64,000 nt of DNA. It comes from Diphasiastrum complanatum (lineage: Eukaryota; Streptophyta; Lycopodiopsida; Lycopodiales; Lycopodiaceae). The stretch lies in contig CM055100.1 in assembly GCA_029204225.1 (NCBI GenBank), positions 34,708,645-34,772,644 on the forward strand. The letters are read 5' to 3'. The notes under the pieces are model-generated. The model worked only from the letters and a program-made list of their open reading frames with translations, made no database searches and was not told the origin of the DNA. Positions 4,394 through 64,000 of the stretch are shown piece by piece (the stretch's first letter is position 1; each line of letters begins with the position of its first letter). A program made the translations under genes and the position numbers.

Positions 4394-5945
4394 GAGAGAT
4401 TATGATTCTTATTGTCACCATCTTTGCCACAGGAGCAAAGGTTTCTTCATAGTCAAGGCCATATATTTGTGCAAAGCCTTTAGCACACAATCTTGCCTTG
4501 TACTTGTTGATGGAGCCATCATGATTGTACTTGATCTTGAACAACCACTTGCATCCAATGATATGCATGTAAGGTGGTGGATCCACTAGCTCCCATGTGT
4601 GGTTGGTGATCAAGGCATCATATTCAATCTTCATGGCCTCATACCACTCCTTGGTATTGAGGGCTTCTTGAACATCTTTGGGCTCCTCATAAGAAACAAA
4701 ATAAGCATAAGTGGAATCAAGATCCACTTGTTTTCCTTTGTCATCATAAGTGAGCCTCTTGGGCTCGGATCTCTCCCTCATGGATCTTCTAGGAGTGAAA
4801 ATCCGAGGACTTCCATCTTCAAATCTTGACTCCTCCATATGTTGATTGTCTTCAATAACAACAGGTGATAGATTTTGAGGTTGCTTGATCTCGGCCCCTC
4901 CAAGATTGGACTTTTCTTCTTCATGTAAAATTACATCTCTACTATCAACTACTTTAGAGGTAGAGAGCATGTAGATTCGATAGGCTTTCTTGTTGGATGA
5001 ATATCCAACCATTACTCGTTTGCTTGCACAAGGATCATCCTTCTTTCTCGTTTCCAAGGGAATATGGACAAAGCATATGCATCCAAATACTCTAAGGTGA
5101 TCAACCTTAGGTTTCTTCAAATAGAGTGCTTCATATGGTGATTTTCCTCCAAGTGTAACATGAGGGATTCTATTGCAAAGATAGTTTGAACAATTGATAG
5201 CCTCACCCAAAAAGTCTTTTGGCAAAGATGCCTCAATTCTGATGGTTTTGGCACATTCACACAGTGTTCTATTCTTTCTTTCAGCCACCCCATTTTGAGA
5301 TGGTGTATATGCACAAGAAAACTCTCGTTTAATGCCTTCAAGCTCACAATAATCATAAAATTTATTGGAAGTGTACTCACCACCTCCATCACTTCTAAGA
5401 ATCTTGATTTTGTAAGAAATTTGCTTTTCAACTAGAGCTTTGAACTTTAGGAAATAGTCAAACACCATAGATTTTGAAGCTAGAAGATATACCCAAGTAA
5501 ATCTAGTGAAATCATCAATGAAAATTACAAAGCAAGTAGCACCACCCTTGCTCTTTGAAGATGAGAAGTGCACATCTGAGTGTATGAGCTCCAATGGATG
5601 TGTAGTCTTGATAGATGACTTTGAAAAAGGCTTCTTATGAGACTTAGATATGGCACAAGCCTCGCATGGCTTGAAATTCTTCGAGATAAGATTAGGCAAG
5701 CCAATAGCTTTGGCTTTTTTGACCATGGACACCATAGAATTATAGTTAGGATGACCCAACCTTCTATGCCATAGTTCCTCCAAAGACTTATGAGTAGCAA
5801 AAGCACTATCACAGGAGTTAGCGTACTCTTTGGGATCAAGCTTGTAGATTCCACCATATCTAGACCCAAATGCAAGGATTTCATCAGGCTTCTTGATTGT
5901 ACATGTATCAACATTGAAATTCACATCTAGTCCACTATCAAACAA
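4377..5945 (-). pseudogene. Copia integrase and N-terminal reverse transcriptase
   Basis: A 522-residue frame. In order: the gag-pre-integrase zinc motif (ELWHRRLGHPN ... PCEACAISKSH), the integrase core with catalytic residues in ELIHSDVH, LRSDGGGEY and SQNGVAERKNR, a proline/serine-rich linker, then the RT fingers (WYEAMKIEYDAL, GCKWLFKIKYNHDGS, ETFAPVAKM). An in-frame stop at 5943-5945 replaces the usual Gln in the VGQLFDSGLD junction with the protease frame. The frame ends at SLALFF, where intact copies continue into the palm domain. Confidence 0.92.
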
Positions 5946-48180: not shown

Positions 48181-49621
48181 CCAGAACCTGAGGAACAAAT
48201 CAACACAGAATAGACAGGAGAATAGCAACAGTTCATCCTATGTCGAGGAGCTCGAGAGCTCGAAGATGGGCAAAGAAAGATCAAACAGAAACTGTTCGAC
48301 TGCCTACATCTGTGAAGACGTGTGTGCAATGTCAACATCTGACACACTCGAGGTGATCCTAGATTCAGGAGACACCTCACACTTCATGACATCAAGACAA
48401 ATCGTGTCTAATTTCAGAAGTGCAGATCCTTCAAGATTCATAGTTTTTGGAGATGGATCCAAACATCAAGTGAACGACATTGGTTCACTGTGGCTCAACA
48501 CCAATGGCAGAGACAGACGGCTTGAAGACGTTCTGTTCGTGCCTACACTGCAGCAGGACTTGCTTTCTGTAGCAAGAATACCAGATGCTGGGATGCGTGT
48601 GACATTTTCTGACGAAGCATGCAACGTGATTGACACCAGTACCAGTACTCTGATCGCTCAAGGCAGAAGGAAAGAAAATCTATATCATCTGAAGATACGT
48701 CTACCTGCAGATCAGGTGCATCGACTCATGATGATTCACCAGGTACTCTGTGGCACAGGAGACTCTGCCACATGAACTCAATGACACTTTACCAAGCAAG
48801 CATCATGGAGCGATAACGGGAGTCAACATCTCGAGTGCAACCAATTTGACCACCTGTGATGCATGTTTGAAGGGCAAGATGTCACGCACTCCATTCGTCA
48901 AAAACTCCTATAGAATGACTAAGATTCTGGAGTTAGTGCATTCTGACATTTGCGGACCATTCAATGTGATCTTAGTAGGAGGTTCAAAGTATTATATAAC
49001 CTTCATTGATGACTATAATAACAAGAGTGTATTTTATTCAGAATAAATCTGAAGCACTTGATAAACTCACCGAATACATGAATTGGGTTGAGAGATGTAC
49101 AGGCAACAAAGTGAAGCAGATCAGGATAGGTCGAGGTGGCAAATACATCTCGAATCGCTTCACTGACTGGACCCTGGTGGAAGCAGCCAAATGCATGATG
49201 GCCTACTCCAAGGCTCCAAGGGTACTGTGGGCTGAAGCAAACTATAGCCGCATACATCCAAAATAGAATAGATAAGTTTGGTGTCCCTCACATGACACCA
49301 CACAAGTTATGGTGGGGTAGAAAGCCCAACTTGTCTCACATCAGAATATTTGGCTGTGCAGCTTATGCACATATTCGAGATAAGCTTTGAAAGAAGCTTG
49401 ATGAGAAAGTCGAACAGAAATTTCTGGTAGGTTATGACAACAACTCGTCATACTACAGAGTCTACATGCCAGACATGAACACTGTGAAAACAGTGAGAGA
49501 TGTCAGATTTGATGAGAGCAGGACAATGGCCAATGACGATCATGTCAGCTATGAAGTTATGGAGAGACAGTACTATCACCTGCCGCAAGTGATAGAGGGA
49601 GCAGAGGACGAACACGAAAAT
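48170..49621 (+). pseudogene. Copia family-E protease and integrase
   Basis: Protease near 48355 with ILDSGDTSHFM, where the usual Ala of DSGA is Asp. Then VNDIGSLWL, LEDVLFVPTLQQDLLSVARI, the pre-integrase CDACLKGKMSRTPF, the integrase LVHSDICGPFNV, RIGRGGKYISNRF (diverged second catalytic block), and after a deletion HMTPHKLWWGRKPNLSHIRI. It ends at about 49621 in gypsy sequence. No third catalytic motif (NGVAER) is present. Confidence 0.85.
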
Positions 49622-51411
49622 GAAGATTTTTGTGATTACTTTTGTAGTCATGGATATATCTGAATCTCCAACTGCATACCATGTTTTATTGGGAAGACCA
49701 TGGCTGAGGACTGCGCAACTAGTACACAACTGGGGTACGGGAAAACTCACCTTCGAGAATAGAGAACAGACTATAAAGGTTGATCCAACCACATGGGTGG
49801 TGAAACCTATTGCACCCAAGGCTGATGACGGATCATCTATGACAAATCACACGATTGATCGCCCAAGGCTAGCCAAGGGAGGTCACTATGATTCAGAAAT
49901 GGATGTCGTGATATGGACGGATGCATTAGCAACTATTGACTGCCGGGCATGTCAATATGAATCAGATACTGAACCCAGAACATCTTCGCCCAAGTGTTAC
50001 ACTATGGACACACCAATCACATTTGGGGTGAATATGATAAATGTAGCATGGCTGTCAGTGGAACCTATTGAGAACCCAGTGGACGATGATTTAGTCCCTT
50101 GGCAACATGCTCTAACTTATAATAAGGAGATTGAGTTGACTGATGAGCAGGTCCTACACCACATGGGCCTAGATCGTTACGGAACCAAGAAAGTACCAGC
50201 TCAACCACCGCAAAAGTCTGCTATGGCGAAAGTCTCAAGGATCAATTCCCCCAAGGCACCTATGAATAAGAAGAATCAGTTGAAACAACTCTACAACCAA
50301 GTGATCCGATGGAGTGATCTACCCAAAGACGCGATAGCTATAGTGGATGTTGATATTCGTAATCATGAGGCGAATATCACGGCAGTCCCAATGAAAGACA
50401 ACAAGGATGAATCCACCAAAATGACAAAAAAAGACAAAAAGAAGGTGTTGGATTCCTTGAAGTCAATCAAGATAGACTCAGATATAGTGTCATCTTCTAC
50501 ACAAGTGACAAAAAATCAAAAGATGACCAGTCGGGCCAAGATCAATATGCTGAAGGAGGAATATCGATGAGCTCCACTTCACGAGATGCTTGAGACTTTC
50601 AAAAATTATATCTTGGACGATGTAGTAATAATGATGCCACAAGCCCAACGAGAACCTGATCAAAGTCAGGCACCAGCGGAACAAGTCTTCGAGGGACCTA
50701 CGCGGACACAGCCGATGAACCTTGCTGAGCCAGGTGAAGAAGAAAAGATAGTGCATGTGGGAGAGCAATTAACGCCCACATAGTTCAAGAGACTACGATT
50801 GTTGTTGGTGGAGTATCAAGACTGTTTTGTCTGGGTTTATAGTGATCTGAAGGGCATTCCGCCAACAGTGGTCCATCATACGCAAAAATTTCTAAAAATT
50901 TTCTTGGACGATCTATGCGTGCATGGACCAGATTCAGAACACTTATCCAATTTGAAAAAAGTGCTACAAAAATGCCACGATTACCAGATATCCCTGAATC
51001 CAGAAAAATATCAATTTTGGGTGACAAATGGCTTGATTCTCGGCCATATAGTGTCAAGACACGGGATCGTCACAGATCTATCAAAGATCAGGATCATTGT
51101 TGATCTACCACCACCCGGGACGATCTGCAAAGACTACATCTTCATGGGTCATGCTAGCTATTATAGGATCTTCATTCTTGATTTTGCAAAGTTAGCCCGA
51201 CCAATTTACAAACTCACAATGGATCCACATTGGAACGAGCCCTAAAGGCTTTCCAAAAGCTTAAGGATGCATTGGTTTCAGCACCAATCTTACGCCCGTC
51301 CAATTGGTCCATTGAGTTTCACGTGCATACGGATGCATCGAAGTATGCAGTTGGAGCAGTCTTAACCCAGCCAGGTGAACATAAAAAGGATTTTCCAATC
51401 TGATTTGCAAC
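49622..51411 (+). pseudogene. Gypsy pol fragment fused to copia
   Basis: Starts abruptly with FVVMDISESPTAYHVLLGRP, the sequence just after a gypsy protease. A long 316-residue frame follows (linker rich in Lys/Asp), then QDCFVWVYSDLKGIPPTVVH, directly joined to IFLDDLCVHGPDSEHL (F-L-D-D, catalytic). About 100 residues of RT fingers and palm are deleted near 50885. RT thumb GHIVSRHGIVTDLSKIRI, then RNase H start HTDASKYAVGAVLTQPGEHK. Cut near 51405 by CACTA-type sequence. Confidence 0.85.
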
Positions 51412-51429
51412 ACAACTACAAATATAGGC

Positions 51430-51800
51430 CCATTGCCATGCCCATTGCCACACACATAAGATGGGGACCAGATTTGACCCGATGGCCCTCGCATGGCAAA
51501 ATCTGTGGCAATTGCGTGGCAAACTGCATGGCACTACCACGCCACCTAAGTTTTCCATCGCCGGCTCTTCCTCCGAACCGATTTGGGGGGAGGGGGCTCG
51601 GAGGGAGTCAAATTTTAAATTTGCGTGGCACTACCACGCTTAAAAAATCTGGAAAATTGCCACGCGTGGCAGTTTTTTATAGAATATTAAATTTTGCCAC
51701 GCATGGCAAAAATTCTGAATTTTTTTCTAAAGTTTGCCACGCATGGCAAATTTTTCCAGAAAGTGAAATTCTGCCACGTCGTGGCAAACTTTTTTGCAAT
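51430..51800. repeat. Palindromic subterminal-type repeats (GCCACGCGTGGC)
   Basis: The motif GCCACGCATGGC/GTGGCA recurs in both orientations: TGCCACGCGTGGCA at 51658-51671, TTTTGCCACGCATGGCAAAA at about 51692-51711, again at 51733-51750 and 51772-51787, plus several half-sites between 51492 and 51545 and near 51628. CACTA transposons carry such short subterminal arrays. A related motif appears at 56790-56825. Confidence 0.8.
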
Positions 51801-51860
51801 TTTTTTAGGGCAAAAAAAAACCCTGCAAAATGAAAAAAGTTCTTGAAGAAGAGATTTGGG

Positions 51861-51862
<2 letters not shown>

Positions 51863-51907
<45 letters not shown>
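51863..51907. repeat. (GA)n microsatellite
   Basis: About 45 bp of GA next to the palindromic array. Confidence 0.95.
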
Positions 51908-51909
<2 letters not shown>

Positions 51910-52950
51910 GTCGTGGGATGGATAGAATCGATGTGAGGTGTCATGAGATAGATAGAATCGATGTGTGGTGACATCGTGGAATGAATAGGATCCATAGTAG
52001 AATTTGCGTGAGGTGTTGTGGGATGGATAGAATCTATGTGTGGTGATATCGTGGGATGAATAGATTCCATGGAAAGATCTATGTGAGGTGTGGTGGAGTA
52101 AGTGACATGCAAAATGGAAAGATGCATAACTTCCACATCATGAGGTGTGTAGTGACTAGTGACATCATTATGATCATCAACAAGATCTTCGTCTAATGCC
52201 AAAGATGATGCAAGATTGATATTTCTTATCTTGTTGATAATGTCAATCGACGTGTTATAAGACATTGACATCAATGTATTATTCTGCAAGAGTAAAACAT
52301 TACACAAGCATTAGTTTTATTTTTTTCAAAAAAATTATAAATATGTGTATGATACGAACAATACTAAATTGTCAAAATGTACCTCCAAATTCACATCGGG
52401 CTTCTCAATGTGCTTTCCAAACTTCCACCGATGTTGCGCCACTATCCGTCTTTCTCGAATTTTCAATCCTTTGCCTTGTTTGCGCTTGCAATATATCTTT
52501 TCATTGTACCTCTGTTGATACTAACTTCATTTTACAATTACAAAAATGATTAGCTTAATGTTACAAGCTAATTTATATGTGTATAAATACAGTCGTAAGT
52601 TTTAAACAAATAATTATATAGTATCTGCGATTTAGGTTGAGGCTGGGCACCAAAACTTGATGATGATGATGTTCCACTAAGTCTTTGCTCAAGCATTTGT
52701 GCTCTTTTTCGTGATTTCATTTTGTAATAATATTGTATCTTCTTTAACTTTTTGCTATCGTGTGGAGGTGTCGTGTTTTAAACAATCGCAGAAAAAAAAC
52801 AAAAAAGTTATATTCAACACACAATGCTGCAAATCTAAATGTTAAGTACATAATATCTATTGTACATTTAATAAATATACCTATTTCAATACAATTCCTT
52901 AGTAGAAGACATATTCGCTAATGAACGATTAAATTTTATCTGCAATTTTT
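51910..52950 (-). pseudogene. CACTA TNPA-like gene remnant
   Basis: The minus strand shows, over several exon-like pieces, SKKLKKIQYYYKMKSRKR, then TSVEVWKAHREARCEFGGTF, which fits the C-terminal end of plant Ptta/En/Spm (transposase_24) proteins, then a low-complexity repeat of about ten residues (PHIDSIHPTT-like, four to five units) at 51915-52120. Frame shifts and stops are present. Confidence 0.55.
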
Positions 52951-53280
52951 TAACAAGAATGTTAATGATATTGACAAAATACACTTGTTAAAATATACAG
53001 TTAAAATTGATATGTACACACAAATTTAACAAGATCCACAAATATCTTTATCACTAGAACATTTAGATACCTTACCAATGTCAAGTTGCTTGAACGAACA
53101 TGACATTGTCTAATTCGTGAAGAAAAGAAACAGATTCAAGCAAACTATGAAATAGAAGTGTGATTTCTTTTAACTATTTAGAAAACTAAGCAATAATTAA
53201 TACATATTTGTCATTTTTAAAAAATCATCAAAATCTTCAAAATCCCGAGTTTGGAAAAATCAAGTAACTTGAATTTGATA
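52950..53280. other. AT-rich, unrecognised
   Basis: No ORF; presumably decayed transposon interior. Confidence 0.3.
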
Positions 53281-53919
53281 CTTACATGTGAAACAACTCT
53301 ATTTTGTTCCCTATCGCTTGACATAGCCCATTGAATAATCATAATTAACCAGCATCACATGAGATAGCTCAAACAACTTGATGTCTATCAATGTAAAAAG
53401 TCTCATTTTGGCACTTCTCACCTGAGGCTCCTCATAGAGTGATCAACTTTGAGGGATTTCATCCAAATAGATTAAATTAGTGCACCTATCATTTGGAAAT
53501 GCCAAAATTTGATGGCCAATGTGTAATTTTTTTTTCCTTATCACCCAACAAGGCTCATCAAGTTATTAGAATCAAATAGTTTTAAATCTAGTATGTTTTG
53601 TTGCACCAGTTATTGTTGACATTTGATCCCTATCACATCAGATAGCTCAAATTTGCTATCTACCATTAAAGATAGTTTATTTTTGGCCCTTATCACTCGA
53701 AATTGTCTATTGAGTGACGAAACCAAAAGCATAATGACTTCAAGACATTGAAATAGCTTGAATTTGGTACCTATCACTTGGAATAGTTCAAATTTGATGC
53801 CTAACGTGTGGTTTTGATGTTGATCACTTGACATGGCTGATCAAGGGATTAGACTCAACTAGCTTCAAATCTACTATGAATGAGATCTAATGACTTAGAA
53901 GATCTAGTAGAAGAGTTAA

Positions 53920-54420
53920 TGGTTGCTTGCGAGCCTTTGAGAATAGCCTCCTTTGCTTAAATCCGTTTACAATGCAAGTATCATAATAGAGTAAACACCT
54001 TCCTTAAAATGAACATCTAAACCACTATCCATTAGTTGCCCAACACCAAGCAAGCTCCTAGTAAGATTAGAAACATAGAGTACATTTTCTATATCCAATC
54101 TTTTAGAGGATCCAAGACTTAAAGAGATCCAAGACTAGCCTCACTCTCAATCCACCATGTGTCATTGGAGTAGCTCTTGCTTGTTGGTGTAGATGCCATC
54201 AAGGATGAATCAACTTCATCCTCATAATCCTCAATGGTAAGGTTGTCTTGCTTACTCTCATCTTGTTTTTGTAGCACTGGGATGCAAAGTGCCTTCCACA
54301 AAAGAAGCACTTTTGTTTGGCTTTGTCTTTCTTCTTTCGTTTAGAGCTTAATTCTTGATCATCATCACTTTTGCCATGCTTTGGATTTTTCTCTTGGACT
54401 TCCATCATGCAATACATTCA
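53920..54420 (-). pseudogene. Copia gag-protease fragment
   Basis: Zinc knuckle remnant KQKCFFCGRHFASQCYK (one residue block lost), linker with ASTPTSKSYSNDTWWIE, the protease start altered to IESEAS where IDSGAS is expected, then ENVLYVSNLTRSLLGVGQLM in other frames. It is embedded in the degenerate repeat field. Confidence 0.7.
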
Positions 54421-54668
54421 GATTGAATGTTTTTTATCGCTTATCAATGGAATTGACCCCTATCATGCGATATAGCTCAAGATTATCGTCTATCACTTGA
54501 GATAAGACATTGAGTGATCAAGTTAGAGTAATTTCGAGTTTACGACATTCATGTGACTTTGAATGTTGTGCTTACATGTGAGACAACTCAATTTTGGTCC
54601 TAATTACTCATCATTATTCTTTGAGTGATCATAATTGACCAACATCGCATCAGATAGCTCAATCTTGG

Positions 54669-54972
54669 TGTCTATCAATGTAAATAGCCCCATTTTGGTG
54701 TCTCTATCACTTGAGAAAGTCAAAATTTGCTACCTAACATATGATTTTGTTGCTTATTACTTGACATGGCTCTATCAAGTGACTAGACTCAACAAGTAAT
54801 ATATTAAGACAACTCAAGTTCCACCCCTTGTCAAACCCCTATTACATGTGATGACTTAAATTTTATGTCTATGCGTGGTTTTGTAGCTTATCACTCGACA
54901 CGGCTCATCAAGTGATCAGACTCAACCAATCCCAAGTCTAATATACTAAGCTAGCTCATATCACATGAGATA
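54669..54972 (+). repeat. Source-like copy of a 304-bp duplicated segment
   Basis: Runs from TGTCTATCAATGTAAATAGC to CACATGAGATA. It is about 95 percent identical by eye to 56004-56308. Confidence 0.85.
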
Positions 54973-55199
54973 ACTAAAATTTGATGTGTATATTTTGGAA
55001 TAGCTCACTTTTGGTGCATATCACTAAAGGTTTCTCATAAAGTGACCAAATTTGAGAAATTGTGTGCTCATGAAATAGATTAAAGTCGATTCCCATCACT
55101 TTAGATAGCTCAAATCTAATGTCCAATACAAGATCTTGGTCCTTATCACTTGACATAGAAGATCAAGTGACTGAACTTGGTCAATCTATGATTTGGAAC

Positions 55200-55960
55200 A
55201 ATCAATTTTGGCCCATGATAGATTGAATCTAGTCCTTGGGCAGGATGATTAGTTTGCTGCTTGGAAGGACAAGAGAGCAATAGTTTTATTTTAAGAAGAG
55301 ATTATGACAACAAAGATCTAATATAGGAGCATGAGCACTTCAACATATGGACATTGCAAATGCTCAATTTTTTCTTGTCCCCTATCACCATCTCAAGAAA
55401 AATCCATTTTACACTCTCAATGATCTTCTGAAATCAAATTCGACTGTGATACAATCAATTAGTCATGGCAATCTTGTTAGCATTGCTGGTAGCACCTCTA
55501 CACAAGACCACAGCCAAGGATTTCACAAACAAAGATGTTTGATCCATTCCTCAATGCTAGCAATCATCTAATAACGTCCGCCGAGTTATTTCCTTTCCAT
55601 CCACTCAACACAAAATCCGAAAACACCCCACCACATTCCCCTGCACTCTTGTCAGTTGCTCTCATCTCCATCCATCAACAATCCCTTCACAAAAAAAACC
55701 CACCTCCAATTTCTCCTCGGATTCCACCCACAGAGATTTCAAATCTCTTCTATCCTTAATCTTCCTTCAACTGGCTTTAACCGCATAGCACACAACCATG
55801 TTCCTCGAAATCTATTAGCTCATTGGTACCATACTTTATGGAAGTAGTAGTATATCTAGCGTCCCTCAGTGTATTACAAAAAAAAAAAAGGAAAATTGCG
55901 CCTAGCTTAACACATGTTTTTTTATTTTTTAAAAATATTCCGACCCAGTACGTTCTGACC
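55200..55960. other. No recognisable gene
   Basis: Short frames only; the C-rich stretch 55560-55760 has plant-like composition but no motif. No assignment. Confidence 0.35.
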
Positions 55961-55965
55961 CAAAA

Positions 55966-56343
55966 GGGTCGGAAAGGGTTTCTAAGGGACACATATATAA
56001 AAATGTCTATCAATGTAAATAGCCCCATTTTGGTGTCTCTATCACTCGAGAAAGTCAAAATTTGCTACCTAATATATGATTTTGTTGCTTATTACTTGAC
56101 ATGGCTCTATCAAGTGACTAGACTCAACAAGTAATATATTAAAACAACTCAAGTTTAACCCCTTGTCAAATCCCTATTACACGTGATGACTTACATTTTA
56201 TGTCTATGCATGGTTTTGTTGCTTATCACTCGACACGACTCATCAAGTGATCAGACTCAACCAATCCCAAGTCTAGTATACTAAGGTAGCTCATATCACA
56301 TGAGATATGGGTCGGAAAGGGTTTCTAAGGGACACATATATAA
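55966..56343 (+). repeat. 305-bp insertion flanked by 35-bp direct repeats
   Basis: A 35-bp sequence (starts GGGTCGGAAAGG, ends ACATATATAA) occurs identically at 55966-56000 and 56309-56343. Between them, 56004-56308 is a copy of 54669-54972. Confidence 0.9.
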
Positions 56344-56749
56344 CAAATTAATAAATACTCTTTAAACTAAATAATGTCCACAACTTATATGCAACATCAA
56401 ACCACATATTTACATTTGTCATTTTTTTTAAATCACAAAATTCTCTTAAACACGTGGTCATTTTGTACCAACCATATCAAATCATCTACTTGTTTTATAT
56501 CAAATCAAAATACAATTAATACTCATTTGTCCTTTTCAAAAATCATCAAAATCTTCAAAAAAAACATGGTCCTCTTGTACCCAAAATATGTCATATCAAT
56601 CACATGCTTTTGTCCTTAAAAATTCATGCTTAAAAATATGTCATATCACCCACATGCTTTTGTCCTCAAAAAATATTTATAAAATTAGAGTCAAATCATT
56701 TTTCTAGTTCCATAATTTGTCATTTTGACAAACCACTCACCATATGACA

Positions 56750-56853
56750 CATTCCAAACCGTAATCATGGATTTCCATGCAAAAAAAAATCGCGTGGCAA
56801 AAAAATGTGTGGTAGAGCCACGCGACACTTGAAATCTGGAAAATGAATATAAA
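56750..56853 (+). promoter_or_regulatory. CACTA 5' region: palindrome and TATA box
   Basis: CGCGTGGCAAA and GAGCCACGCG (56792-56825) form an inverted pair like the 51430-51800 array. TATAAAG lies at 56848-56854, before a CT-rich leader and the TNPA-like gene. No CACTA terminal repeat is visible, so the outer end of the element is not fixed. Confidence 0.55.
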
Positions 56854-57031
56854 GGCCCTCATTCAATATTTCTCCACGCCTTCTTGTGGACTTCTTGAGG
56901 CTCTCAAGCTCTCACACTCAAGCTCTCACTCTCAAGCTTTCAATCTCTCATTTCTCTCTCTCTCTCTCAATCTCTCACTCTCAATCTTTCATTTCTTTTC
57001 ACTCCTCTCCACTCTTTTCTCAATCTCTCCA

Positions 57032-57321
<290 letters not shown>

Positions 57322-57322
<1 letters not shown>

Positions 57323-58484
57323 TGTCTACTAGTGGTAGCGGAGCATCAATGAGGAGGCCAAGATCCTCTTTCAGTGGAAGAGGACAAGCCTCAGGATCGG
57401 ATTCCAATTGAGTGCGAGATTTTTATACTATGCTATCTCCCGAGGAAAGGCAAAGGATAAAAGCCCTTTTTCTTTTCGAAGGAGAATCCGATCAACAAGA
57501 TCGTGGATTCGTTTTGACGAACATGCCGTCGGAAGAATCCACGAATATTTTCTATGACCTTGATGAGGATGGTTCCATCATCATGGACATTAGGGGTAAG
57601 GTCGTCATCAATAGATTGCACGACCTTACTCTTAAATACTTTGGTCACAATTTGTTTAACCCTTGGGAGCAACAAGACCAAGGGGACAAAGACAAGATAC
57701 TTGATATATTGTACCGTGAGTTTCCACAACCATATCGATTTAATGGCAAATGGGCGAAGACGAGTATGTGTATGCATATTCGTCATAAGCGCCAATCATT
57801 AAGACGATTATGTAGTAAAGGCAAGAAGAGGCCGGGATGGGCATCTAAAAAAGATTGGAAAAAAGTTGTTTATGAATCCAAGCATCCTAATCCCGAGCGC
57901 TTTAAGCAACAAAGAGAGGCAACAAAATCAAGGCTTAATCTTTTAGGCCAATCTCACCTTGGATTGGGAGGCAAGGCCAATATGCATGCCCAATTTGTAA
58001 GCAATTCTCTTTTAGCTAATTGCATTTCATATGTTTATTGTTTATCAATATTTTTTTTGCTTTTGTCTAATCATCGATTTGTGTTGATGTAGGTTGAAGA
58101 TTATGGGCGTAAGTATACAAATGTTGAGTACAATATTGGATATCGCCATGGCTATAGTGCCTTGGTTGATCATCTTGCGGCACAAGGCGTACATCCAAGG
58201 GTAAATTTTTGCTACATAATTTGTATTTCTCTTATTTTTTATACACACTTTTTATTTCATTTCAATTTTATGACATGTGTTTGGCTAATAATTATTAATT
58301 TGTTTTGTGAATGTGTATGTAGAGGGCATCCGCTTCCTTTGTGGAAGAAAGTACGGGAGGAAACCAAGGAGAAGAAGGGAATGAAGATGAAGGGATGAAG
58401 GTGAAGACAAAGGACAAGATTCGGCTTCGGACAACGATGAGGGAGAAGATAGCAAAGACTAAGAAGTCTACTATTACTTCTTAG
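57322..58484 (+). pseudogene. CACTA TNPA-like protein (Ptta/En/Spm, transposase_24 type)
   Basis: Start ATG 57322 (MSTSGSGASMRRPRS). Exons 57322-57996, 58093-58200 and 58323-58484, all joined in phase 0 with GT-AG introns of 96 and 122 bp; about 320 codons. Blocks: RDFYTMLSPEERQRIK, LTLKYFGHNLFNPWEQ, ILYREFPQPYRFNGKW, GWASKKDWKKVVYESKHPNP and VEDYGRKYTNVEYNIGYRHG. An in-frame TGA at 57409-57411 (codon 30) disrupts it. The last exon is acidic in an alternative frame (GQDSASDNDEGEDSKD), so a further frameshift is possible. In En/Spm, TNPA binds subterminal repeats; here that role is inferred. Confidence 0.8.
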
Positions 58485-59100
58485 ATTTGATGTATTTTTA
58501 GTTTTTGCAAAAGTAGAAAAAAAGAGTATTAGTATCAATGCTCTTTTCATGAATTAGATGCGAATATGTATACTTTTTTGAATTATGAATATAAACTTTT
58601 GTATTTGATCATCTCTATCTCATTATGTATGGAATGATTGTTTATTGTTTATGTATTTCTATTTCATCTTGTATAAATTTGTTGTAAATATATACAAACA
58701 ATGAAAAACAAACAAAACATCAATTTAAGATGATAAAAACATACCTCATCTATTGTTTAACTGATCTTTAATTCCTTTTAAGATGCATTTCTTTTTTTCT
58801 CTATAAAGAAAACAACAAAAACCAAATCATTTTTAGATTACAAATCAATCAACAAAATGATAATTGTTAGAATACAAATCAAAGAATCATTGCTAAATTA
58901 AAAATCATTAATCATTGTTACATCAATCTCACCATGTTCAAGATACTATGAAAATGCACTTTATGACTCAAATGTAATCTATCAAAATTTAGAATGCATA
59001 ATATATCTCATGAATAAAAAATGAAAAACTAACAAACAAAATCCCCCACATCACCTCACATACCTTGTGTAGAATCTCCTCTTCTTCCTATCCCATCTAG
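58485..59100. other. AT-rich intergenic or intron sequence
   Basis: Between the TNPA-like stop and the SET exon. A pyrimidine-rich acceptor-like CTTCCTATCCCATCTAG ends at 59100, so part may be an intron of the SET gene whose first exon was not located. Confidence 0.4.
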
Positions 59101-59852
59101 ATTTACTCCATTACAAAAAAAAACACGACTTGGACGCATTTTGACAAGATTTGAAAATGAACAACCAAATTTACGTATTGTTGACTTATCCAAGAATGTT
59201 TTAAATTCATTGACTGAGTCTCTCCTTCCTCCCTACCTAGAAGCATTGGTTAAGCCCTTTGATGGAAAGAAATATTCATGTTGGCCTGATAGAGTACTAC
59301 TACCATTATGTGGAACATCATTTTCATATTGGGGTCATATGTACATGATCAAGCCAAGTGAGCACTTTCCTAATGCGGGATTGGGTTTATTTTCTTTGAC
59401 TAGCATTGATGTCCCCTTGAATTGTGTTGTCACATTGATGCCTTATGCGAGACCTCAAGCCAATTGGGGTGGCATGTCATCACCAATGGAGAATGCAGGT
59501 TTATGGCTTGAATGCCAATGCTTGTTCTTTGGAAGAGCGATATCTGCAAGGAGAGAATGTTTCAAAATCACATCGTATGTACATTGATGGGCGTCCAGGA
59601 AAATATGGCAATATTGCTGCATATATAAATAGTTCCATTGGGCACCCTTCATTAACTAATTGTGATTTCGAGGAACGAACCAATGGAAAGGAAGAATACT
59701 TTTCTAGGAACTCAAAAAGTACATTCGTAATGGTATGTGCGATAAGGCCCATTAAATGTGGTGAAGAGCTATTCATCAACTATAGCTTCAATCGCCCTCT
59801 TCCAGGATGTGTACAAAAGGCTTTGAGCCAAACTCAAGCATGTACCTTGTGA
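59101..59852 (+). pseudogene. SET methyltransferase-like domain within the CACTA element
   Basis: Two overlapping frames (to about 59500, then 59445-59852), so one frameshift. First half: NAGLGLFSLTSIDVPLNCVV, the SAM-binding G-x-G start of a SET domain. Second half: HRMYIDGRPGKYGNIAAYIN, then SSIGHPSLTNC, then VMVCAIRPIKCGEELFINYS, the C-terminal SET core (N-x-S...NC, G-E-E-L-x-x-N-Y). The family transfers methyl from SAM to lysine, usually on histones. The usual N-H-S-C is N-S-S here, so activity is uncertain. In the next frame SKHVPCEYQQCAKANQ leads into the transposase frame 5 bases before this stop. Confidence 0.75.
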
Positions 59853-62800
59853 ATATCAACAATGTGCCAAAGCAAATCAGCCTCGATCTTCTTCTTCAGA
59901 ATCAAGTTCAAGTGTTGAAAATGATTTTTGCATTCAAGGTGAAAATGAAGTCATGAACAACTTGATAAATAACCTCTATGAGCATCATGATATGGAAGAA
60001 CACACTGAACATGATAGCGAATCATTTATTAGTGCCGAGGAAAAAAAAATTGAGAGAAGAATCAAACACACCATTATATCCAGGAGCAAAGACATCTCGT
60101 TTGGCCGTTTCGTTGCTTATACTGAACCTCCAAGCAAAATATAAATGGAGTGATATAAGTGTTACATCCTTATTTGGGTAAATAAAATTAAGATTGTTTT
60201 TTAAGAACTTAATAGATGTGTTGTTCAAGTCAAATGTTTTAGTTGGCTAAATGATCTTTTATTTTATATTATGAAAATTTATTTTATATTATGAAAATTT
60301 ATTTTATATTATGAAAATTTATTTCATCATGTACAGGTTATTGCACAAACTACCCCAGAAGGAAACACTATGTTAGAGACAAGAGGTGAGGCACAAAAAA
60401 TGTTGAGCGCAATGGGAATGGACTATACATTGCATCATGCTTGTCCCAAAGATTGCATCTTATATCCAGGTGAGTATCGAGGGTTAAAGGTTGTCCTATA
60501 TGCAATACTCCTCGATATCGAGATGACTTACAAGGAACCACTATCCCATGCAAGGTGTTACGACACTTTCCAATAATCCCATGATTGCAACGATTGTTTT
60601 GTTGCAAGTCTCTTGCAGAACTTGTGAATTGGCATGCTAATCATTGTTCTTCGGACGAGATCATGAGAGTACCCTCAGACTTTTCTGCATGGAAACACAT
60701 TGACAAAGAATATCCATGTTTTGCAAGTGAAACAAGAAATATAAGATTTGGACTTGCAACAGACGGGGTTAATCCCTTCGGAAAAATGTCAAGCACGTGA
60801 TCTACTTGGCCAGTGGTGTTGGTCAACTATAACATTCCACCTTGGCTAAGCATCAAAAAAGGACATCTCATGCTAGCACTTCTAATTCCTAGAAAACATA
60901 AAGTAAAAAATATGGATGTCTACTTTGCACCATTGATTGAGGAACTAGAACTACTATGGAAGGGAGTCCAAGCATATGACATCTCACGTCCACTTCAAGA
61001 CAAAACATTTTTGTTGCGTGCGATGTTAATGTGGACTATGCACGACTATCTAGGATTGGACGATTGTTCAGGTGACTATAAAATGAAATCATTTGTAATG
61101 TTTGTATATTTATTTTTTATGCATGCAATATTTATGCTTTAAAAGAATTCTATTTATAACACGAACTAGATTTGATTCTTTTAGGTTCTACAACTTCTGG
61201 ATATCATGCGTGTCTCATTTGTGGACCAAATATTGATGCTCGCCACTCACGTCATTTAAACAAAGTTGTGTATGAAAATCATCGCAAGTACTTGCATAAA
61301 GTCATCCATTTAGAAATGCTCATAGAAGAGGCTTTGGAGAAAGATCAGAAACAAGAATGTCTCCAAAGAGAAAGTCCGTGGCAGATTGGCACAAACTTTG
61401 GATTGAATCCGAGACTAAGCCAATCAATGATATGAAAAGACTATCCGTATTTCATTGTTTACCATATTGGAATAACCTTTTGATCAATCACTTGCTTGAC
61501 CCTATGCACATATTCAAAAATGTGGGTGAATCAATATGGAAACACTTGGTGGGCGACAAAGACAATATTTCTGCCAGGCATGATCTACAAGAATCAAAAA
61601 CAAAAAAAAGAGTATTGGCCAAAATTATGTACTGATGGAAATACCTATAGTATTCCAAGAGCCCCTTGGATTCTTACGCAAGAAGAGTATAAGTACGTAC
61701 GGTCAGTCATTTGTGAGATGAGAACACCAACGGGTTTTGCTCATTCACTACGAACATCATTCACAGTTGAAGGAAAACTCCATGGTCTAAAATCTCACGA
61801 TTGGTTGAATATGGTCGAGTACATATATCCAATGTGCATTCGTGGCTGTCTAACTGATCAACTTCGTGATGCCATTTACAAATTAGCATACGTTGTCAGG
61901 TACTTAATTTTTTTTGCTTACATCAATATCTTATGAAATTGCATGTTTTTTTTCTAATACAAGTTTGATAAAATAATATGAACGTACTAAAATCTAGTTA
62001 TACTACAAACATGATGTAGATGGATGTGTGGTAAGGAGATTCATGAGATAGACGTGCAAACAAAGCAAGAAGATATGGTGGAGGCTGTATGTATGCTTGA
62101 GAGAGATTTTCCAACTTCTATCCTAGACATACAGGTGCATCTGCTTGTGCACTTGGTCCAAGAAGTTGGTATTGCCGGTCCTGTGCACTCAAGGTATAAT
62201 ACACTTGAATTTGATTTTAGTAGTTTCAATAAATGTAGTGTGATTTTTTCAAATTATAAATAACAGAATGTTCTCATTGATGTGTTAAAATTTTCTGTAG
62301 GTGGATGTTTTTCTTGGAGAGATTCATGAAAGTGTTGAAAGATTTTGTGCGTCAGAAAGCAAAGCCAGAGGAAAGCATGTCAGAGGGATGGTTAGTGCAA
62401 GAATCTGTATTTTATATTATCGAAGTTTTGTTTCAAATAGATCCATCTGCTCCACGACTATGACATGATGAGGAAAGCAATGAGGTGAAAGGTGAAAAAC
62501 CTCAAGGTATGGGTAGTCTTAAAAAAATTACACCTAGTTTGAGAAAAAAAAATTCAACCTTCATGCTATATAATTCAGGAGTAATGGATAAATGGTTGGA
62601 ATTATATGAAGAAGAAAAAAAAAAAGGGTATTGACAAGAAATCAACACCGACGCAATAGGCGTAGAGGTCAACCTACACCTTCACATGATCTTGAGCCAT
62701 TGCCCAACCAATGCACTATAGACTGGATGGTTGATACACTCCAACAAACAAGATCAAAGGGACAATTCATATCTGACACAAAATGGGAATTTGCAAGAGG

Positions 62801-63788
62801 ATGTGATTGGAAGGTTTGTCTATAACTCTATTTTTTTTAAGTGAACAATTTTAATTTGTATGATAATTGATAATCAACATGTGACAGTATCGAAAGTATA
62901 GTGCAATGTGGGCATATGGTCATCATCATCGCATTGAATCAATTGATATGAAACGACGAACTTATGATTGTGGTGTGATGGCATCCTTCCATCAAGAAAG
63001 TCGGAGTAGTGCTCGAGATCAAAGTCCAATTTCTGGAGAGCTTGAGTATGTAGGAACCATACAAGCCATATATGAGGTGTGTTTTGGTGAAATGGGTAAA
63101 TATATGTTGTTTGACGTGAAATGGTTCAAAATCAACGATTGAGAATCAAATGCAACTGTAAAAAAAGACCGTAGTGGATTTTTTGCTATCGATTCAACCA
63201 AGACATTAAGCATGGGCTTTTTAGACACATTGGTGTTGCCTTGTCATTGTGAACAGGTGTGCATGAATTTCACATTTTTTTCTCTTTGTCAATTGTGATC
63301 AATGTTATATTAATCATCTACACTACTTTTTTATTACGTCTATTTATTGTGAATTAAAATGTGAGCATAACAAATATCTAATCCTAACATTGCTAAATGT
63401 GCAGGTATTTTTTCAACCAGATCGACTAAACAAAGATTGGTGGTATATTGTTCAAATTAAGCCATGCTCAAGACATGTATTCGAAAATGCATATGTTGAG
63501 AATGAAATGGAAGATCTAAATTTGGACAACACAAGTATATCTGATGAAGATGTACATATGCCTTTGAGTTTTATAAATATTGAAAATTCGAGAATTGATT
63601 CTCATGATTCTGACAACTCAGATGATGAAGAGGACAACAATGATTCTTTGCATGAGGACAATATTGGGAGAGGTTTTGATTTCAAAAGTGATGATGAAAA
63701 TCATGTTCACGGAGATGAGTTGCAAAATGTATTGGCTGATGATTTGAATTTTGCGATGATGAATAAAATTTGTACATGTCACAAATAA
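59848..63788 (+). pseudogene. CACTA TNPD (tnp2) transposase with DUF4218 and DUF4216-like regions
   Basis: N-terminus acidic (59848-60050), then TPLYPGAKTSRLAVSLLILN, an intron about 60178-60336, HHACPKDCILYPGEYRG, CPICNTPRYRDD, KVLRHFPIIP, LATDGVNPFG (likely first catalytic Asp, 60760), WPVVLVNYNIPPWL, an intron 61072-61184, HACLICGPNIDARHS, LLDPMHIFKNVGESIWKHLV (likely second Asp). DUF4218 part: HDWLNMVEYIYPMCIRGCL, VHLLVHLVQEVGIAGPVHSR, WMFFLERFMKVLKDFVRQKA (introns near 61900-62019 and 62195-62300). DUF4216-like: GELEYVGTIQAIYEVCFGEM and VFFQPDRLNKDWWYIVQIKP. An acidic tail ends at 63788. At least five frameshifts, plus a TGA at 60574 that reads as CGA elsewhere in the family. Cut-and-paste transposase; inactive as it stands. 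Confidence 0.85.
60261..60320 (+). repeat. Three tandem 20-bp units in a TNPD intron
   Basis: ATTTTATATTATGAAAATTT occurs three times without change at 60261, 60281 and 60301. A partial unit precedes. It lies inside the intron before the CPKDC exon. Confidence 0.95.
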
Positions 63789-64000
63789 TTTTTTCATAAA
63801 ATGATCCATTGTCGTCAATATATATTGTTTTCAAATTAAGATGATTATATTTTTTTACGATGTTGCATTTCAAAAGTTTCATTTCAAACGCATCTCGCAA
63901 TCACTTAGAATTAGAAAAATTTATCAATATTAATAGATGTGTGAACTAATTAAAAGATATATGTGTTGATTATTTATATATTATAATTAAAAAACATCTT
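63789..64000. other. 3' flank of TNPD
   Basis: AT-rich with no ORF. The 3' terminal repeat of the CACTA element is not seen and may lie beyond the window. Confidence 0.4.

Follow-up and report, generated by a model that had tools for sequence, protein, structure and literature searches.

The stretch of DNA analyzed here (the window) comprises 64,000 nucleotides of the clubmoss Diphasiastrum complanatum (GenBank assembly GCA_029204225.1, contig CM055100.1, positions 34,708,645 to 34,772,644 of the forward strand). From 51411 to 64000 it is occupied, on the plus strand, by a CACTA-like (EnSpm, tnp2-type) DNA transposon, delimited by its termini and target-site duplication (TSD), whose 3′ end lies past the end of the window at 65013 (position 1013 of locus L029). 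Within this transposon, directly before the transposase core, is a SET domain. The best explanation for the observations described below is that the window holds one decayed copy of an EnSpm/tnp2-type family in which a SET lysine methyltransferase is a built-in exon of the transposase gene.

The initial annotation of this DNA had placed a SET domain within 59101–60180, and a Pfam profile scan bears this out: PF00856 matches frame 3 of the window at 59439–59849 with E=1.4e-8 and 35.6 bits, well over the curated cut-off of 22.4. The SET coding sequence is split over two frames, 59138–59470 (frame 2) and 59475–59852 (frame 3). Its closest annotated counterpart in our comparison, the D. complanatum protein P0001 (33.0 bits against PF00856, with the same cut-off of 22.4), is 62% identical to it (146/235), and tblastn aligns P0001 to the window in two blocks, 59138–59470 and 59475–59831, that lie in these two frames; the window SET therefore contains a frameshift near 59470. 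Translation, tblastn and the alignment of copies assign the N-terminal part, including GLGLF, to the continuation of an exon that we call C (59045–59470, plus strand, frame 2), and PF00856 and the tblastn match to P0001 define the C-terminal part, with the motifs GNIAAYINSS, TNCDFE and GEELFINYS (59475–59852, plus strand, frame 3), which ends at a TGA. More frameshifts and stops have accumulated in the frames of the window copy, which we therefore regard as dead. The best match of P0001 among the first loci that we fetched from the genome is 68%, so P0001 itself lies outside that set.

Downstream of SET, a read-through of 60337–62463 (plus strand), which covers the TNPD transposase exons together with their nonsense and frameshift damage, matches tnp2 (PF02992, E=5.2e-60, 202.7 bits) and DUF4218 (PF13960, E=3.1e-25). 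Transposase_21 and DUF4218 were the only Pfam matches of this read-through at E≤1, and no Harbinger transposase was found among them. Between SET and this core, translation and copy comparison identify the remainder of exon D (59863–60177, plus strand), which encodes a Ser/acidic linker and the start of TNPD and has a frameshift near 60045. In the window, the end of SET reads without a gap into the linker (AKLKHVPCEYQQCAKANQ), and this had been taken initially as the trace of a once-continuous SET–TNPD frame. It is instead a fusion peculiar to this copy: overlapping flank matches to X13, L009 and others show that about 340 bp (342 bp when measured in the alignments to X13 and L009) have been deleted, with the junction at 59857–59863 (plus strand) and CAA microhomology there; gone are the spacer and the beginning of exon D. 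Other copies have a stop codon at the end of SET, followed by about 200 bp (in group 1) or about 590 bp (in group 2; both groups are defined below) before exon D begins. We also considered whether the missing spacer could be a splice footprint; this was ruled out, as the gap begins past the GT site and finishes inside exon D.

The exons upstream of SET lie on the minus strand of the window, in a segment that has been inverted in this copy. They are exon A (52625–52756; tblastn 86%), exon B (52383–52514; tblastn 86%), with the donor GGAG/GTACAT (slashes mark splice junctions), and the start of exon C (52050–52283; tblastn 90%), with the acceptor CTCTTGCAG/AAT, which the inversion has parted from SET. 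Exon B resembles the Transpos_assoc zinc domain, with C.C..C and HLW patterns in other copies, and in a string composed from several copies its pattern matches the second half of that domain. The zinc-associated N-terminus had initially been thought absent, with SET occupying its place; it is found at 52383–52514, and in other copies it lies upstream of SET, where the exon order is A, B and then C running into SET. Judged from these alignments, SET appears to lie between the N-terminal zinc region and the transposase core.

The arrangement recurs throughout the genome. A PF00856 scan of the 1.74-Gb assembly, in which 150 of 875 candidates were scored, yielded at least 146 matches, and by extrapolation the family would have more than 100 copies. 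Our first sample comprised 20 loci chosen for their long open frames and is therefore biased toward better preserved copies. All 20 carry the SET domain of the family, and in 19 it is followed on the same strand by the linker or tnp2, the exception being L015. Most of exon D is found no more than about 0.7 kb from SET in 16 of these loci; L014 has only the exon D start, followed by its tnp2 part, and L017 and L018 have only the exon D start directly after SET, with a full exon D 4.1 and 2.7 kb off, respectively, in a second, partly duplicated unit past an intervening 3′ terminus. A second sample of 16 loci was spread by hand down the list of matches, ignoring frames: 15 belonged to the family (L036 contained another SET domain), and exon D adjoined SET in all 15. 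Altogether, 34 of 35 family loci, all of them found through their SET domain, keep SET followed by exon D/TNPD on the same strand, in part or in whole. The initial annotation had staked its suggestion of a captured SET domain on the adjacency of SET and tnp2 in multiple copies, and this is what we see, as far as loci found through SET can show; together with the evidence for selection given below, it makes the case for capture stronger than originally claimed. In the exceptional locus, L015, the copy breaks off past SET near position 4608, where CACTACAAGAAGTCAAATG resembles the end of another CACTA element.

The SET sequences fall into two groups: group 1, with 15 loci plus the window, and group 2, with L017, L018, L020, L025 and L026. 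Between the groups, the ratio of nonsynonymous to synonymous substitution rates (dN/dS) of SET is 0.19–0.31 in 80 of 80 pairs, with a median of 0.25, and within group 1 the median over 120 pairs is 0.79. Differences fixed between the groups number 30 nonsynonymous and 51 synonymous (30N:51S), versus 163N:62S for singletons (Fisher p=4e-8; 80% threshold, four stop-making singletons excluded). As a yardstick we used the tnp2 core, with 13 group 1 sequences and a thin sample of two from group 2: here the fixed differences are 9N:19S versus 208N:65S for singletons at a 75% threshold (p=4e-6, 16 stop-making singletons excluded) and 8N:19S versus 82N:23S at an 80% threshold (p=4e-6, 11 excluded). 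The singletons in all of these counts may include sequencing errors. SET is thus under purifying selection between two lineages of the element, and the transposase likewise. These data can be read simply: SET worked as long as the element was mobile, and dead copies decay neutrally. We judge it close to certain that SET is part of the element and was under selection there.

A cluster on contig C1 was the source of two of the group 2 loci, L017 and L018: between 48.59 and 50.24 Mb, 16 SET matches are found within 1.65 Mb. In each of these two loci the 3′ terminus occurs twice, similarly flanked, together with another partial unit containing exon D, which suggests local or tandem amplification of group 2.

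The splice signals around SET are also conserved. In nine copies that we compared, as well as in the window, the exon B donor is intact, reading GGAG/GTACAT in seven group 1 copies and GGAG/GTATAT in two group 2 copies, and the same nine copies and the window have TTGCAG or TTGTAG as the exon C acceptor. The exon D acceptor, TTTGAAG/GA followed by C or A, was matched by a motif search in 15 of 20 loci, 13 of which have no further AG within the 40 bases before it. The SET stop is TGA in group 1 and TAA in group 2 (L019 lacks it); in copies with an open SET frame this stop codon parts SET from the transposase, so that no single open frame spans both. Near the end of SET are donor-like sites, TGT/GTACAA in phase 0 and CTT/GTGAAT or GTT/GTAAAT in phase 2. 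The junctions of exons B, C and D are all phase 0, and therefore skipping exon C would give an ordinary in-frame transposase, whereas including it would end the protein at the SET stop. Like the position and multiplicity of SET and the selection on it, these conserved signals and phases are observed directly in the copies. The sites and phases are consistent with one split gene made up of A–B, C, and D onward. One further copy, L010, looked at first like a spliced version of the region upstream of SET; its missing stretch does not have GT–AG ends and is therefore a deletion.

Based on this organization, we consider it fairly probable that the locus makes two products by exon skipping. The gene would consist of exon A, the zinc-associated exon B, exon C with a Ser/Thr-Pro-rich spacer, the SET domain and its own stop, and exon D onward with the acidic linker, the tnp2 core and DUF4218. 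Alternative splicing would join A–B–D to give a regular transposase with its typical N-terminal domain, and A–B–C to give a second protein in which the same N-terminal domain is joined to the SET enzyme. The shared domain could then target the methyltransferase to the element's DNA or to the transposase complex, where SET would mark histones and so alter the silencing or transposition of the family. The two transcripts, the catalysis, the targeting and the effect on silencing are what we infer from the gene's layout.

Several observations weigh against this model. The exon A donor, AG/GTA, is kept in only five of the nine copies compared and is broken in the window. The typed mixed-copy string for exon B matches PF13963 over profile positions 28–61 of 74 with E=1.4e-4 and 22.4 bits, short of the curated cut-off (27.7). 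In group 1 only some 200 bp separate the end of the SET exon from exon D, and constraint on exon D is weaker than on SET or the tnp2 core (20N:12S fixed versus 153N:40S for singletons, p=0.04, 10 excluded). Structure prediction was poor, with predicted local distance difference test (pLDDT) scores of 31.0 and 46.5, and the assignment of the SET fold therefore rests on sequence. Exon D itself needs an upstream exon, because it has an acceptor and there is no conserved in-frame ATG just upstream, and that exon could in principle be C: spliced to D at the phase-0 site TGT/GTACAA, it would give a single continuous zinc–SET–transposase protein. Of the 20 fetched copies, 19 have GTACA in phase 0 at this place (17 GTACAA and two GTACAG), with L021 out of phase through its own frameshift. 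We nonetheless regard such a fused protein as quite unlikely. The site has no AG before its GT, unlike the exon B donor (9/9) and the exon A donors (5/9); P0001 has a Leu at that codon, so its subfamily cannot have the phase-0 site; and the more donor-like TT/GTRAAT is in phase 2, such that its use would shift the frame. Moreover, sequences of the two groups can be aligned as far as the stop and a few bases beyond and diverge after that, as expected of coding sequence, and a search with the SET region of the SET–TNPD read-through returned no relative of 530–1680 amino acids at E≤1 among 1116 candidates.

The SET stop, common within each group, and the annotation of P0001 as a SET-only gene model would also suit a SET gene that the element carries independently, driven by a promoter of its own and sharing no exons with the transposase; exon C of group 1 contains in-frame ATGs, and an inner Met (EVMH) is kept in both groups. 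Against such independence, which we think unlikely, exon C opens at a conserved acceptor, the exon B donor is conserved in phase, and group 2 does not share the in-frame ATGs that come first in exon C. Finally, SET might be a passive passenger: the transposon could have picked up a piece of a host gene a single time and multiplied it although it did nothing, or an insertion could have landed in a pseudogene of the host. The broken window copy, the stops or frameshifts in some other copies and the median dN/dS within group 1 (0.79) are what one would expect of a passenger, but the between-group dN/dS of 0.25, the N:S ratio of fixed differences far under that of singletons and the retention of the arrangement in 34 of 35 family loci make this highly improbable.

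If exon skipping does yield two products, the natural reading would be that the SET enzyme acts on the element's own chromatin, whether in an activating or a silencing direction. A more specific version, which we offer only tentatively and hold to be possible rather than probable, is that one locus encodes both the transposase and a SET methyltransferase, which share their DNA-targeting N-terminus, and that through marks set on the element's own copies the SET isoform evades or tunes silencing.

The SET sequences also have relatives outside this genome. A profile built from nine of them finds 73 proteins at E≤0.1, P0001 among them; P0002 is 46% identical and the others 27–41%, and they are drawn from JGI, ENA and one further source, presumably metagenomes. 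In an alignment of P0001 with 41 of the 72 other matches, G81, G83, N168 and E210 (P0001 numbering) are invariant across the 42 sequences and Y215 is conserved in at least 90%. These are residues that, we assume, an active SET enzyme would keep, and their retention is as expected for a putative active enzyme. The nearest SET class is equivocal: when compared with PDB profiles, a profile of eight relatives matched ATXR5/ATXR6 best (3.3e-5), whereas a broad profile matched an H3K4-specific methyltransferase best (6bx3, 3.3e-7), with ATXR5 at 1.4e-5, leaving ATXR5/6 or H3K4-type. For the transposon SET family, the only PDB matches were antibody chains (0.0034 and 0.85; 0.2), which we took as chance. 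Searches for SET relatives gave pattern matches in viral contigs with profiles A3 and A1 and in prokaryote genome contigs with profile A3 only, none of which was confirmed. Three of the relatives, P0054, P0058 and P0066, are longer (313–415 amino acids); P0054 and P0066 have His/Asp-rich N-termini, and both fall under the Pfam SET cut-off.

The ends of the element are well defined. The 5′ terminus is CACAACTACAAATATAGG, directly preceded by GCAA, and the 3′ terminus, given as its reverse complement, is CACAACTACATATATGTG, directly followed by CAAGCC, such that a 3-bp TSD, CAA, is found on either side. The 5′ terminal inverted repeat (51411–51428, plus strand) matches the 3′ terminus at 15 of 18 bases, and X13 (an extension of L013) has the same 5′ end. 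The 3′ terminus recurs with 0–3 mismatches in eight of 20 other copies as fetched (X27, from L027, and L009, L012, L017, L018, L020, L021 and L028), with flanks that mostly differ between copies. Both ends start with CACAA and the literal CACTA letters are absent; hence the name CACTA-like, with the placement of the element resting on its transposase. CACTA families with deviating terminal letters exist elsewhere too. A subterminal motif resembling TGCCACGCGTGGC, allowing up to two mismatches, occurs five times in the window plus L029, seven times in X27, five in X13, four in L017, once in L020 and not at all in X23 or L026 (raw counts in the sequences as fetched, uncorrected for chance).

The initial annotation described SET as lying between TNPA-like and TNPD-like genes on the same strand. 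This holds for the window but probably not as the native layout, as the strand of TNPA goes with the inversion. In blastn comparisons, eight of 11 other copies match 51905–59042 on the minus strand only and the remainder of the element on the plus strand, and on our reading this segment of 7.1 kb has therefore been inverted in the window; it includes the TNPA-like gene, the inter-gene region, exons A and B and the start of exon C. The three exceptions are L020, with a short minus-strand match, L022, with both minus and plus stretches, and L017, with a plus-strand TNPA stretch. The TNPA-like gene itself (57412–58480, plus strand in the window) appears constrained relative to L017 (dN 0.28, dS 1.24); its first exon matched no Pfam family. 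TNPA was matched in three copies: X13 and L012 have it running opposite to SET, and in L017, which comes from the rearranged C1 cluster, the two share a strand; from these few copies, the native TNPA strand is probably opposite to SET.

Other features of the element and its surroundings are side observations. Between TNPA and exon A, at 54119–54417 (minus strand), is a fragment with the motifs CFFCGRHFASQC and TWWIESEAS that we take to be copia gag/protease-like; several other copies carry it, so it is an old passenger of the transposon family. The element also contains a direct repeat of 300 bp, 96% identical, at 54669–54968 and 56004–56303. Open frames at 49596–51403 (plus strand), presumably of a retroelement, stop just short of the 5′ terminus, and the transposon may thus have inserted into a retrotransposon.

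There are precedents for several parts of this picture. SET genes occur in HarbingerS and MuDR elements of Phytophthora (Kojima and Jurka, Repbase Reports 2014, cited in PMC12730594). Like the clubmoss element, these are DNA transposons with a SET histone methyltransferase gene; unlike it, they belong to other transposase superfamilies and another kingdom (PMC12730594). They are closer parallels than primate SETMAR, which the initial annotation had brought up: SETMAR does associate SET with a DNA transposase, but the likeness is loose, since it is a single host fusion gene with one open frame, whereas the clubmoss family is an amplified transposon. Transposons of fungi that carry TET/JBP, EnSpm elements among them, resemble ours in that EnSpm-type elements have acquired an enzyme for chromatin or DNA marks, proposed to counter silencing, and differ in that the enzyme is a dioxygenase acting on DNA methylation rather than a SET protein, and in being fungal (PMC12730594). 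The Vandal regulators of MuDR elements are plant transposon genes that act on the element's own silencing, as we propose for the clubmoss element, but they are described as sequence-specific regulators rather than SET enzymes, and the elements are MuDR (PMC12730594). Two proteins spliced from one CACTA locus, as in our model, are known from Spm/En, with two alternatively spliced transcripts, and from soybean Tgmt*, with a large transposase transcript plus smaller spliced ones, a 3-bp TSD and subterminal repeats; in these the other protein binds DNA (a presumption for Tgmt*) and is not a SET enzyme (PMC2613891). The introns of CACTA transposase genes have been analyzed in flowering plants (PMC4158355).

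In the open-licence PubMed Central literature, a scope outside which Repbase Reports falls, none of the matches listed was an earlier case of SET in CACTA/EnSpm elements or in plant or lycophyte transposons. SET-bearing DNA transposons are already known from oomycetes, and the part that appears to be new is SET in a CACTA-like plant element, a plant counterpart to the SET-bearing oomycete and TET-bearing fungal elements. On the tentative reading given above, in which the SET isoform marks the copies of the element, P0002–P0073 would be an undescribed and widespread clade of transposon-borne SET enzymes. Hosts silence transposons via histone and DNA marks, and we know of little work on transposon silencing in lycophytes. 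Selective maintenance of a histone methyltransferase by a multicopy element would strongly indicate that transposons employ the chromatin language of the host, against it or alongside it, and the clubmoss family makes it testable whether transposon-borne SET enzymes activate, restrain or shield the element that carries them.

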